NCBI GenBank assembly: GCA_026988515.1
Contig: JALSLA010000018.1
Span: 1-62,342 of the forward strand
Origin: Helicobacteraceae bacterium
Lineage (GTDB): Bacteria; Campylobacterota; Campylobacteria; Campylobacterales; Sulfurimonadaceae
Length of the DNA stretch: 62,342 nt
Reading direction: 5' to 3'
Both the position numbers and the translations under genes were made by a program. Position 1 is the first letter of the stretch, and each line of letters opens with the position of its first letter. Below, piece after piece: positions 6,902 through 20,957 of the stretch. The notes below the pieces were generated by a model that searched no databases, was not told the origin of the DNA, and worked only from the letters and a program-made list of their open reading frames with translations.

Positions 6902-7853
6902 ATCCATCCATGCAAATCTCATAAAATGGTACCAACAGCACGGCCGTCATAATCTTCCGTGGCGGCATAGCCGGGATGCATATGTCATTTGGATCAGTGA
7001 GATTATGTTGCAGCAGACTCAGGTGGCAACGGTACTTGAACGCTTTTATTTTCCGTTTTTACAACGATTTCCTACATTGTATGAGCTGAGTGTCGCCACG
7101 GAAGACGAGGTGCTTAAGCAATGGGAGGGCTTGGGCTATTATACCCGCGCGCGTAATCTTCATAAAACGGCACAACTGGTAGAAGACACGTTGCCGCAGA
7201 GTGTGCATGAACTCATACGGTTACCCGGTATCGGTAAAAGCACTGCGCATGCTATTGCCGCCTTTGCCTACCGTACGCCCGTGCCTATTTTGGATGCGAA
7301 TGTAAAGCGAATTTTGTATCGGTTTTTCGGAAAAAAACAGGCAACCGATAAAGAGTTGTGGGAGTTGGCATACCGACTTTTTGATGCGGAACACCCTTTT
7401 GAATACAATCAGGCAATGATGGATCTGGGTTCTTTGATCTGTCGTTCCAAAGAGACTCGGTGCATACACTGTCCTTTCAAGACGGAATGCAGTGCGGCAC
7501 AGCAGGGTATACCATTGGCCTTTCCTGAAAAAAAAGCAGTAAAATCCGTGCCGATCCGGCACAAAGATATTGTAGTTTTTACATGTAAAAACCGTTATGC
7601 CCTGAAACAGCGAACCGGTCGGTTTTTAAACGGATTGTGGGGATTTGCCGAGTATGAAAAAAATGAATACCCTCTAGAAAACTCCATGCGAAAGCTCGGT
7701 AGTATTGTGCAAAAATATTCGCATTTTCATCTTCATGCCGATATCTTTATATCTCATGCGTATGTCGAAGAATATCGGTACTTGAGTGTGACAGAAATTT
7801 ATAAACTGCCTTTAAGCAAAGCAGATGTTAAAATTTTAAAGATGCTGAATTGA
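6894..7853 (+). CDS. mutY: A/G-specific adenine DNA glycosylase
   Basis: 319 residues. MutY removes adenine mispaired with 8-oxoguanine. Seen here: E36 in SEIMLQQTQV, the helix-hairpin-helix LPGIGKSTA (about 110-118) with catalytic D134 (ILDANVKR), and the [4Fe-4S] ligands C183-x6-C190-x2-C193-x5-C199. The C-terminal NUDIX-like domain that reads 8-oxoG is short but present. I chose ATG 6894 (MHKSIHANLIKWYQ); longer in-frame starts would run through the preceding small gene. A 16-base palindrome TTTTTACATGTAAAAA lies inside the gene at 7576-7591. Confidence 0.94.
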   Translation: MHKSIHANLIKWYQQHGRHNLPWRHSRDAYVIWISEIMLQQTQVATVLERFYFPFLQRFPTLYELSVATEDEVLKQWEGLGYYTRARNLHKTAQLVEDTLPQSVHELIRLPGIGKSTAHAIAAFAYRTPVPILDANVKRILYRFFGKKQATDKELWELAYRLFDAEHPFEYNQAMMDLGSLICRSKETRCIHCPFKTECSAAQQGIPLAFPEKKAVKSVPIRHKDIVVFTCKNRYALKQRTGRFLNGLWGFAEYEKNEYPLENSMRKLGSIVQKYSHFHLHADIFISHAYVEEYRYLSVTEIYKLPLSKADVKILKMLN

Positions 7854-7901
7854 TCTCCAGCACGCTCTGTTGGCTTAAAAATATAATCTACTTTGAAATA
7901 A

Positions 7902-7931
7902 AGACTATATTAGTCTGAATTTTGATATAAT
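7902..7931 (+). promoter_or_regulatory. Promoter -10 with adjacent palindromic operator-like site
   Basis: AGACTA-TAT-TAGTCT (7902-7916) is a perfect inverted repeat. Ten bases later comes TATAAT (7926-7931), a consensus -10, 43 bases before the ATG of the [2Fe-2S] protein. A repeat in the -35 region is where a dimeric regulator could bind. No regulator can be named from the sequence. Confidence 0.5.
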
Positions 7932-7973
7932 CTCGCAAAAAATTTCATTCTGGTGAAATCATGGAGAAGAATT

Positions 7974-8348
7974 ATGGGTGTACCTCAACCAGCGTTTTAT
8001 ATTTTCAAATGTGAGCAATCCAATCCCCCGGGGATGCCGAAACCCTCATGTGTGAATCCGCAAACACAAGACCTTTTTCAACATTTAGCACAAATTTTGA
8101 TGCAAAAAGGTATAATCGGAACAGTGCAACCGATTCGTACCTCATGTATGAATCGTTGTAATGTGGGACCAATTATGTTGGTTGAGCCGGGACATGTGAT
8201 GTATGCACAGCTTGACAAAGAGAAAATCTCACGTATTATCGATGAGCATATTATCGGTGGCAACGTGGTAGAAGAGTATGTTATCGACAGCGAATTATGG
8301 GATGATGCTATTTCGCCTGAAGCGATGATGAAACAGATGGGAAGATAA
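7974..8348 (+). CDS. Thioredoxin-fold [2Fe-2S] ferredoxin-like protein
   Basis: 124 residues. Four cysteines, C13, C26, C58 and C62, match the spacing of thioredoxin-like [2Fe-2S] ferredoxins related to the NuoE/HoxE family (FKCEQSNPPG..PSC and SCMNRCNVGPIMLV). Such proteins carry electrons in the cytosol. ATG 7974 follows GGAGAAGAATT; an in-frame ATG 7 codons earlier lies before that ribosome-binding site. It is the first gene of a tight run with panD and a YbaB protein (6-base and 1-base spacing). The partner oxidoreductase is not in the window. Confidence 0.85.
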   Translation: MGVPQPAFYIFKCEQSNPPGMPKPSCVNPQTQDLFQHLAQILMQKGIIGTVQPIRTSCMNRCNVGPIMLVEPGHVMYAQLDKEKISRIIDEHIIGGNVVEEYVIDSELWDDAISPEAMMKQMGR

Positions 8349-18598: not shown

Positions 18599-18715
18599 AT
18601 TCTTATTTGACTAAATAAAGATATATCGAAATCATATATTTAAATTGTTAGTATAGTGAATAATGATAAATAATAGGGTTGTCAAAACAACTCAAAATAA
18701 TCTAGGATGTAAGTT

Positions 18716-19336
18716 ATGTATGGCCGTTACAGTGAACGATCATGGTTACCCAGAGTCATAGCTTTAGTAGTGATAATACTGTTTCAAGCAAGTGGTGATG
18801 AGCGTGTTCAAGAGGAGTGTAATGCTACAATGCCTCCGATTCCTCTTGAGTTTGCTATGGGAACGGAAGCATACAATAAAGCCATGGACTCCGGTCAATA
18901 CCGATATGTCGGTAATACCAAGTGCCGATTGTGTCATCGCAAATTTTTTATCGGAAGAAAAAAAGACCCTCACGATTATGCTATGAAACGGCTTGAAGCG
19001 GGACAATATGAAGACAACCCCCGTTGTCTGATGTGTCATACTACAGGATATGGTATGCCGACAGGTTTTGTGAATCGAGAGCGTACTCCTCGGTTGGCCA
19101 ATGTCCAGTGTGAAGGGTGTCACGGACCGGGAAATGTTCATATTAAGCTGGCAAAACAAAAAAAGCCCGCAGGAGGATTGTTAGCAGGTGAAGACCGTCC
19201 CGATCGGCTGAGAAAAATGTGTCAAAGCTGTCATACGGAGCGCTGGAACCGTTCTTATCATGATTTAGACAAAGCATATGCGAAATATCGTAATCCGAAT
19301 CCTAATGCACGAAAGCATGTAAAGGAAAGCAAGTAA
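18716..19336 (+). CDS. Tetrahaem cytochrome c family protein
   Basis: 206 residues. An N-terminal hydrophobic segment (about 11-26) serves as signal or anchor, so the haems are periplasmic. Four CxxCH sites: C70-H74, C104-H108, C132-H136 and C169-H173. The third reads CEGCHGPG, as in cytochromes of the c554-like family. It carries electrons or senses redox state in the periplasm. AGGATG 8 bases before ATG supports the start. Three bases separate it from a membrane diguanylate cyclase, so the two are likely one operon and possibly one device. Confidence 0.88.
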   Translation: MYGRYSERSWLPRVIALVVIILFQASGDERVQEECNATMPPIPLEFAMGTEAYNKAMDSGQYRYVGNTKCRLCHRKFFIGRKKDPHDYAMKRLEAGQYEDNPRCLMCHTTGYGMPTGFVNRERTPRLANVQCEGCHGPGNVHIKLAKQKKPAGGLLAGEDRPDRLRKMCQSCHTERWNRSYHDLDKAYAKYRNPNPNARKHVKESK

Positions 19337-19339
19337 ATT

Positions 19340-20872
19340 ATGTTAAAACTTAAATATAATACTCCTGTATTATTGTTCATTCTGGTATTGAGTATCTCAT
19401 ACCTCTCTTTTTTTAATTATGAATCACAGAAAAAATTGCTTTTAACCCAAATGAAAAGTGATGCGGGCGATATAGTCAACTCGATTACGGCCGCGATGAT
19501 ACGCTTTCAAGATATTAAATCGACAATGAATCTACAAAAGCTTGTCAATGATGTTTCATTCGGATTAGAGATTTTTGAATTTCGTTATCTGGAACCTGAC
19601 GGTATTATTCGAAACTCCATGTTTAAAGAGGAGATAGGCAATATTTATACCAGTGAAAGCTTTAAACAGACTATGCAAGGAGAGAAGGAGCTTAAAGAAT
19701 TTTTCTTTGAAACACGTGATTATGTCGATGTTATGGCAATTTATTATCCGATATACCGTAACCAATCTTTGATTGGCATGATTGACCTTGCCGTTGATAT
19801 CTCCGAGTATAAAGAGATTGTAGGATCTCAAGAAAATTTTGCCCTTTTACGTCGTCAGGTTGACATTATGAACTTGCTCAAAGCTATTGAAGGTTCCATT
19901 GCCAACAGTTTGGAAGTCTTTGAAAAAACTGATGTCGACAAGTTTTTACATGCCTATGTGCATTCTGCAGAAAATATTGTGCAAATATCGTTAATTGATG
20001 CAAACAATACCGTGCGCATTAGCAGTCATACCGAGATGATCGGTAAAAAACTGAATATGCAAGAGCTCCCTCCGCCGGAACTGGTAAATATTGACGATCG
20101 TCTTATTTATCGAACGGTAGTGAAAAGCGGCTTGGTCGATCAAAGCAAAGACACGCAACTCATGCTGCTCATTGATGCAACACCGTATGCTCAAAATGAA
20201 CAGCAACTTTTACAAACGGCATTTGTCACCAGTGCAATTGCACTGATTTTTGCCTTGATTATTGCCCGGGCAATTTACTATTCGGCACTGGAACATTCGC
20301 GTAGCGAGAAGGAACGTTTGGAGCGATTGGTTAAAGAGCGGACCCATGAAATTGAAGTATTGAGCAAGACAGATGCATTAACCGGTTTATGGAATCGGGG
20401 GTACCTTGAAGAGATGCTGGAGATGGAGTTTAAACGTGCAAGACGTTATGGCCACGACATCTCCATGATGATTATCGATTTGGATTTCTTTAAACGCATT
20501 AACGATACCTACGGACATATGGCGGGCGATGAAGTGTTACGTCACATTAGCAGCCGCATTAGTGACTGCGTGCGTGAAACAGATTTTGTCGGACGTTACG
20601 GCGGTGAGGAGATTGTGGTGATTCTTCCGGAAACATCACTCGATGCCGCACAAAAAATTGCCGAAGGTATTCGCGAAACCATTGCACAAAAACCGGTAAT
20701 ATTTGAAAACTATGTTATAGAAGTAACAACAAGTATCGGTATGAGTCATCTTCGTCCGGAGCATATGGACTACCTAACCGTTTTTGCCGAAGCCGATAAA
20801 GCACTCTATTTTGCTAAAGAACAGGGGCGAAATCGCGTGGTTGTGTTCGATTCTACCATTGAAATAGGATAG
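19340..20872 (+). CDS. Membrane-bound diguanylate cyclase (GGDEF) with periplasmic sensor domain
   Basis: 510 residues. One membrane helix at about 9-25 and another at about 292-310 enclose a 265-residue periplasmic part that reads as a double CACHE-like sensor (MAIYYPIYRNQSLIGMIDLAVDIS is the first module's end). A coiled coil (320-342) leads to a GGDEF domain: DALTGLWNR, catalytic GGEEI at 421-425, and the inhibitory I-site RETD at 412-415. It should make cyclic di-GMP and be product-inhibited. It follows a tetrahaem cytochrome gene after 3 bases. Confidence 0.93.
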   Translation: MLKLKYNTPVLLFILVLSISYLSFFNYESQKKLLLTQMKSDAGDIVNSITAAMIRFQDIKSTMNLQKLVNDVSFGLEIFEFRYLEPDGIIRNSMFKEEIGNIYTSESFKQTMQGEKELKEFFFETRDYVDVMAIYYPIYRNQSLIGMIDLAVDISEYKEIVGSQENFALLRRQVDIMNLLKAIEGSIANSLEVFEKTDVDKFLHAYVHSAENIVQISLIDANNTVRISSHTEMIGKKLNMQELPPPELVNIDDRLIYRTVVKSGLVDQSKDTQLMLLIDATPYAQNEQQLLQTAFVTSAIALIFALIIARAIYYSALEHSRSEKERLERLVKERTHEIEVLSKTDALTGLWNRGYLEEMLEMEFKRARRYGHDISMMIIDLDFFKRINDTYGHMAGDEVLRHISSRISDCVRETDFVGRYGGEEIVVILPETSLDAAQKIAEGIRETIAQKPVIFENYVIEVTTSIGMSHLRPEHMDYLTVFAEADKALYFAKEQGRNRVVVFDSTIEIG

Positions 20873-20928
20873 TCCTCCAATTGATCCGCGAAAAGTTCAA
20901 CGGAAAACTTGTTTTTTCATGAAAATGC

Positions 20929-20957
20929 TTGACATTGACATAAAAAGCGTCTATAAT
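20929..20957 (+). promoter_or_regulatory. Consensus sigma-70 promoter of the tRNA cluster
   Basis: TTGACA (20929-20934), 17 bases, TATAAT (20952-20957): both hexamers and the spacing are perfect. A second TTGACA follows immediately (20935-20940). Transcription would start about 10 bases before the first tRNA. Confidence 0.9.

Follow-up and report, generated by a model that had tools for sequence, protein, structure and literature searches.

The 62,342-nucleotide stretch of Helicobacteraceae DNA analysed here (the window) carries a gene for a tetrahaem c-type cytochrome directly ahead of one for a membrane diguanylate cyclase with a tandem Cache-like sensor, and functional coupling of the two products is well supported by their co-occurrence across genomes, their adjacency in relatives, and a spacing that leaves no room for a promoter between them. 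Together, the cytochrome and the sensor look like a dedicated receptor whose output can be swapped, as judged from this co-occurrence, the conserved haem sites and motifs, the two output types, and the variety of genomic neighbourhoods in which the genes reside. Our preferred reading, to which we assign a probability of roughly 0.58, is that the two genes encode one two-piece receptor, with the cytochrome as its periplasmic input and haem redox state or electron flux as its signal. The pair has the following features (window coordinates; residue numbers are those of the respective protein):

18716–19336, plus strand: tetrahaem c-type cytochrome, 206 aa, presumed periplasmic
18923–18937, plus strand: haem site 1, CRLCH (residues 70–74), within the signature CRLCHRxFFxGRKxDxH
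18971–18973, plus strand: His86, invariant, aligned with His27 of cytochrome c554 (1bvb alignment, counted by eye)
19025–19039, plus strand: haem site 2, CLMCH (residues 104–108), aligned with c554 CVGCH (counted by eye)
19109–19123, plus strand: haem site 3, CEGCH (residues 132–136)
19139–19141, plus strand: His142, invariant, probable distal haem ligand
19220–19234, plus strand: haem site 4, CQSCH (residues 169–173)
19321–19329, plus strand: Shine-Dalgarno-like AAAGGAAAG, within the last codons of the cytochrome and ahead of the cyclase ATG (by eye)
19340–20872, plus strand: membrane receptor, 510 aa, tandem Cache-like sensor plus diguanylate cyclase output
19535–19798, plus strand: Cache-like core 1 (residues 66–153), predicted from the model, most conserved part of the sensor
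19934–20176, plus strand: Cache-like core 2 (residues 199–279), predicted from the model
20366–20836, plus strand: GGDEF domain (E = 9.3e-50)
20573–20584, plus strand: RETD inhibitory site (RxxD), five residues before the GGDEF motif
20600–20614, plus strand: GGEEI active-site motif

An earlier note on this DNA, made from the sequence alone, had described a four-haem protein ending 3 bases before a membrane cyclase with an intact GGEEI motif, an I-site, and a large periplasmic sensor, and each part of this description holds. The cytochrome has four CXXCH motifs, its stop codon ends at 19336, and the cyclase ATG begins at 19340 on the same strand; the 3-bp spacing leaves no room for a separate cyclase promoter, and a plus-strand promoter scan from 18708 to 20929 returned zero promoter-like sites. 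The cyclase retains the string RETD-FVGRY-GGEEI intact, and its periplasmic portion is predicted to contain two Cache-type cores. Upstream of the pair are modABC-like genes (named by eye, except for the binding protein) and yaaA; downstream are tRNAs and tuf. A perfect sigma-70 consensus promoter (TTGACA-17-TATAAT, 12/12) sits at 20929–20957, just beyond the cyclase and ahead of the tRNA–tuf genes.

The cytochrome belongs to the Cytochrome_C554 superfamily (PF13435; E = 1.7e-13, 51.8 bits against a cut-off of 20.8) and matches a profile of cytochrome c554 (1bvb) at E = 1.2e-11. It resembles the c554 of Nitrosomonas, which takes electrons from hydroxylamine oxidoreductase, in being a tetrahaem member of this family. 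It is nevertheless no true c554/CycA, since it scores 33.7 bits on NF043010 against an equivalog cut-off of 400, nor is it a UshA-like (seleno)protein of the NF041198 type (UshA_like_PCGU): that match (E = 4.3e-22) reaches 78.4 bits against a cut-off of 275 and is confined to the C-terminal cytochrome part of the model, positions 396 to 511 of 519. The signal sequence, at about residues 1 to 28, was judged by eye rather than with a predictor.

In an alignment of 52 family cytochromes (45 paired-side rows, 5 solitary, and 2 first-of-tandem copies), all four CXXCH motifs, His86, and His142 are kept in every row. Tyr188 and Tyr191 are also invariant, and position 182 is His in just 20 of the 52. 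Because His86 and His142 are the sole invariant histidines beyond those of the four CXXCH motifs, His-His ligation is probable for two haems, and the other two probably do not have a conserved distal histidine. We took this haem geometry from the sequence, the predicted structure of the cytochrome being moderate (pLDDT 71.5), haem-free, and too weak for placing ligands; a search of solved structures with this model gave zero matches at E ≤ 0.001. Paired, solitary, and first-of-tandem cytochromes differ little in the same alignment; most of the differences lie in the first-of-tandem copies, and the comparison does not delineate a clear interface.

The two haems without a conserved distal histidine (52/52) are the starting point of the main rival explanation, namely, that the pair senses a gas or another small ligand: one or two haems that have no distal ligand from the protein would bind NO (or O2, CO, or sulfide), and the Cache sensor would read the ligated cytochrome. 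Haem 2 aligns with the CVGCH haem of c554, which we take to be five-coordinate, with an open position. In one gammaproteobacterial genome (G745; locus L198, 5904–8535), downstream of the pair come a regulator of the CRP/FNR type and two genes, one with a c-haem and one resembling a haem-copper oxidase, that appear norCB-like by eye, although these neighbours occur in that one genome and a family scan of the two genes gave weak oxidase matches or none. A published family of c-haem Cache domains has, in fusion with signalling modules, the properties of an NO sensor (PMC12889525). Four haems, however, exceed what a gas sensor would need, and the cytochrome model, haem-free as it is, is too weak to place a ligand; we consider gas sensing an unlikely account of the pair.

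The receptor itself has the active-site motif and RxxD I-site by which active diguanylate cyclases are recognized, and on sequence grounds it is predicted to be one; among the cyclases checked, RxxD is present in 38 of 38, as is GGEE[FILM]. In the predicted structure of its sensor (pLDDT 82.1), a long helix is followed by core 1, a helix, core 2, and a last helix with TM2, which by this model would make it a double Cache receptor: two PAS-like cores set between two transmembrane helices, with a long N-terminal helix. Among solved folds, tandem Cache domains and WalK come closest, with a comparison to the PscC tandem Cache giving Z = 11.8 and an rmsd of 2.3 over 102 aligned residues; Foldseek TM-scores are low, mostly 0.2 to 0.3, and the mutual arrangement of the two cores is therefore uncertain. 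Of the sequence profiles, dCache_1 (PF02743) matches 17 of 42 sensors at E ≤ 0.01 (three scores fall at 16.9 to 25.1 bits against a cut-off of 45), and Cache_WalK weakly matches residues 65 to 149 of the cyclase. The cyclase contains no CXXCH and thus is not of the sCache_heme type. Conservation is higher in core 1 than in core 2 (mean 0.67 versus 0.46, with 29 versus 6 columns at 90%), which makes core 1 the likelier site of docking or signal reception. As a further indication of contact, we considered correlated evolutionary distances between the cytochrome and the sensor (r = 0.88; partial correlation 0.51 given GGDEF) but set them aside, as the cytochrome correlates almost equally with the GGDEF domain (0.84).

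Genome searches show the two genes to go together. Among 397 Campylobacteria genomes (one search per protein, with residues 1 to 327 of the receptor as the sensor query), the cytochrome occurs in 10 and the sensor in the same 10, neither being found alone. These carriers span five genera in three families, a spread on which, together with the loci beyond the phylum, we rejected the notion that the pair is specific to one genus. Across the Campylobacterota loci that we read out (the 10 carriers plus G001 and G002, the closest relatives of the window's genome, in which the pair is syntenic), the gene order is the same in 12 of 12, with spacings of −14 to +14 bp; in G003, the cyclase is cut by the contig end beside tuf, which leaves its upstream neighbour out of view. 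Of 321 Gammaproteobacteria, 5 carry the sensor, and a family-level cytochrome (E ≤ 5.2e-87) is confined to these 5; the cytochrome matches in a further 33 genomes (38 in all) reach 5e-27 at best and for the most part fall in open frames of about 440 aa. Likewise, 2 of the 77 Nitrospinota carry the sensor, both of them together with a family cytochrome (best E = 6e-88 and 6e-87), while the remaining 60 of the 62 genomes with matches score 2.8e-28 or weaker. In total, 17 of 795 genomes have both genes and none has one alone, with the cytochrome counted at family-level scores and the score line drawn after the gap was seen. Several of the gammaproteobacterial and both of the Nitrospinota carriers were first reached via the cytochrome, and the sensor-first searches were run against the bias of this cytochrome-first start. 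The earlier note had named rare adjacency in relatives as the outcome that would undo the pairing; instead, the genes are adjacent, and in the same order, in 10 of 10 Campylobacteria carriers and adjacent in 5 of 5 gammaproteobacterial ones.

A scan of named genomes with the cytochrome alignment kept 80 loci, 50 of which (L060 to L109; about 44 to 85% identity), set off from the rest by a clear gap, constitute the family. The remaining 30 (L110 to L139; ≤41% identity) were left out of the family counts and have no sensor match among the two neighbours on each side. Within the family, 39 cytochromes adjoin a sensor-cyclase (38 by script, among them L092, truncated where its contig stops, and L088 by visual reading), 4 belong to loci with a kinase-type sensor, 1 lies at a contig edge (L089), and 6 are solitary. 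The earlier note had the pair itself right but missed its range beyond the Campylobacterota, its histidine-kinase outputs, and the solitary cytochromes. Its interpretation, that the sensor reads the redox state of the cytochrome or a ligand bound to it and turns this into c-di-GMP, is partly supported.

In the four kinase-type loci, which are from Nitrospinota and, in one case, Nitrospirota, the sensor is joined to histidine-kinase modules in place of GGDEF. Residues 5 to about 327 of the window's receptor share 38 to 39% identity with the N-termini of the four complete kinases (E = 1e-67 to 1e-70), and a fifth kinase, cut by a contig end, is 40% identical over 262 residues. The output modules consist of HisKA-HATPase with or without REC, or of Hpt-HATPase. 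These sensors lie 0.5 kb (L098), 1.9 kb (L104), 2.5 kb (L094), and 5.9 kb (L093) downstream of the cytochrome, and the accompanying cytochromes group in a single clade (support 100/99). In three Nitrospinota loci (L094, 6624–7781; L104, 6539–7708; L195, 2576–3757), a gene for a five-haem C554-like protein immediately follows that of the tetrahaem cytochrome and precedes that of the sensor kinase, and L104 also has a fragment of a class III nucleotide cyclase domain (7776–8195) between the cytochromes and the kinase.

The cytochrome tracks the sensor through changes of output type, and the simplest explanation is that it is part of the input. The same observation bears on the explanation that the cytochrome is an ordinary electron carrier co-expressed with a regulator, being an output of the pathway or merely co-regulated, while the Cache sensor binds a small molecule on its own. 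Tandem Cache domains, which the sensor model resembles, usually do bind small ligands, and solitary copies of the cytochrome exist; yet plain co-regulation by c-di-GMP does not predict that the cytochrome stays with a sensor of kinase output, and a sensor without the cytochrome was found in 0 of 795 genomes. We regard the carrier explanation as improbable.

The solitary family cytochromes (L062, L066, L070, L101, L105, and L106) indicate that the protein can work apart from the tandem-Cache receptor. Four of these six share an accession prefix with a paired copy (L062 with L061, L066 with L060, L101 with L092, and L105 with L090), and L070 belongs to the genome with the contig-cut cyclase. L105, from a gammaproteobacterial bin, and L106, from a Desulfobulbaceae bin, have identical cytochrome scores and a similar next gene; one of the two contigs, apparently that of L106, is probably misbinned, and the two may be a single copy. 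The window's own genome, which encodes 21 GGDEF domains, also has a solitary paralogue (locus L025 on contig C24, 8776–9402, minus strand) that is 64% identical to the paired cytochrome and without a cyclase, flanked by genes that by eye resemble a signal-peptide-peptidase-like protease and a DNA adenine methylase. Such a solitary paralogue was found in four of four searched genomes of the genus. Two further loci (L100, 3904–5195, and L107, 4798–6334) have two tandem tetrahaem cytochromes ahead of the cyclase. In the first copies, which group in a clade of their own, the otherwise invariant residues K69, T124, and P125 are changed.

The 38 loci paired by script fall into at least 14 neighbourhood groups. 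Nine of the 38 share one neighbourhood, so there are fewer contexts than loci, and the figure of 14 is conservative in that general homology may have joined L095 with L067 and L076, and L100 and L107 with L060 and L061. On the strength of the 14 context groups, we rejected the possibility that the pair is an accident of synteny. Two contexts stand out. In one gammaproteobacterial lineage, represented by two genomes, the pair follows an electron conduit: in L086, the genes for a DmsE/MtrA decahaem protein and an MtrB/PioB porin run right up to the cytochrome, and in L198 (G745) the same order recurs as shorter, split open reading frames; no decahaem MtrA and MtrB porin genes lie beside the window's pair. 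In two Sulfurimonas loci, the neighbours are LapG/LapD-like: L067 has LapG and LapD upstream and a REC-GGDEF protein downstream, and L076 has look-alikes of these genes in the same order. In the window's own genome, one LapD/MoxY-type protein is encoded elsewhere.

These data would fit the following mechanism. The cytochrome would exchange electrons with periplasmic or outer-membrane carriers, such as the MtrA/MtrB conduit in the one gammaproteobacterial lineage, and would dock, probably at core 1, on the membrane protein's tandem-Cache sensor. The conformation of the sensor would be set by the redox state of the cytochrome's haems and, in this way, by electron flow to or from the outside; haem redox state or electron flux is the likeliest reading of the signal, although it is one that we infer. 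TM2 and the signalling helix would then relay the conformational signal to the output, which in the window would be c-di-GMP synthesis subject to product feedback at the I-site and, in the Nitrospinota and Nitrospirota, a histidine kinase. The c-di-GMP of Sulfurimonas-type bacteria probably acts on attachment control, for example, on LapD/LapG. The MtrAB and LapDG contexts, few as they are, suggest that the controlled behaviour is attachment where electrons can flow.

Receptors with a periplasmic partner are already known, and it is the version partnered by a cytochrome that we did not find in the literature searched. YfiR-YfiN is likewise a two-gene receptor consisting of a periplasmic regulator and a cyclase, and it shares the layout of the present pair; it differs in sensor type, YfiR not being a cytochrome. 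In the present pair, it is genetic linkage that points to control of the cyclase by its periplasmic partner. The nearest functional parallel in a review of c-di-GMP signalling (PMC8846402) is HmsC-HmsD of Yersinia pestis, in which a periplasmic partner acts with a membrane diguanylate cyclase that responds to periplasmic redox conditions. As described there, HmsC works through disulfides and abundance, with haem unmentioned, whereas the partner here is a haem protein; no word beginning with “cytochrome” occurs in the text of the review. In the sCache_heme family (DUF3365), c-haem takes part in periplasmic Cache-based signalling, but the haem lies inside the Cache domain (PMC12889525), whereas here the haems are on a separate protein. 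In Shewanella, genes for the conduit and outer-membrane cytochromes and the Cache chemoreceptor SO_2240 correlate with redox-guided accumulation around minerals; the output of this congregation is chemotaxis, and the available text reports no dedicated cytochrome-receptor gene pair (PMC5789149).

The docking of a multihaem cytochrome on a sensor kinase's periplasmic domain in TorC-TorS of Escherichia coli raises the possibility of a maturation check. The apocytochrome would bind the sensor and be released upon haem loading, so that the pair would report on haem supply or cytochrome c maturation. Apo-TorC does bind the periplasmic domain of TorS and block signalling, according to PMC8534201 and PMC11727998, yet holo-TorC is reported to have bound TorS about equally. 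TorC is, moreover, a NirT/NapC-type respiratory cytochrome whose apo form is the brake, without a conserved two-gene unit with a Cache receptor; it is the partner of a respiratory enzyme within an operon under TorS, and no such operon is conserved beside the pair. A maturation check is thus very improbable, and we retain the redox-sensing receptor as the preferred reading. The earlier note did not know of the cytochrome-cyclase pair as a described system; in agreement with this, we found neither a description of the pair nor any receptor with a dedicated multihaem cytochrome as its input in the literature searched, which took in few subscription papers.

Bacteria that live on minerals, on electrodes, or in sulfide-oxygen gradients must know whether electrons can flow. 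More tentatively, and at less than even odds, the pair may exemplify a general class of cytochrome-coupled receptors in which a dedicated tetrahaem protein would turn extracellular electron flow into a tandem-Cache conformation, with outputs swapped over evolution among cyclase, hybrid kinase, and Hpt-kinase, and by which chemolithotrophs would directly sense a solid or distant electron donor or acceptor in order to control attachment or gene expression. The compactness of the pair and the presence of its sensor on two output types make the input testable in isolation and graftable onto other outputs. If the redox reading is true, the pair would provide a defined molecular route from outside redox conditions to c-di-GMP and two-component circuits.
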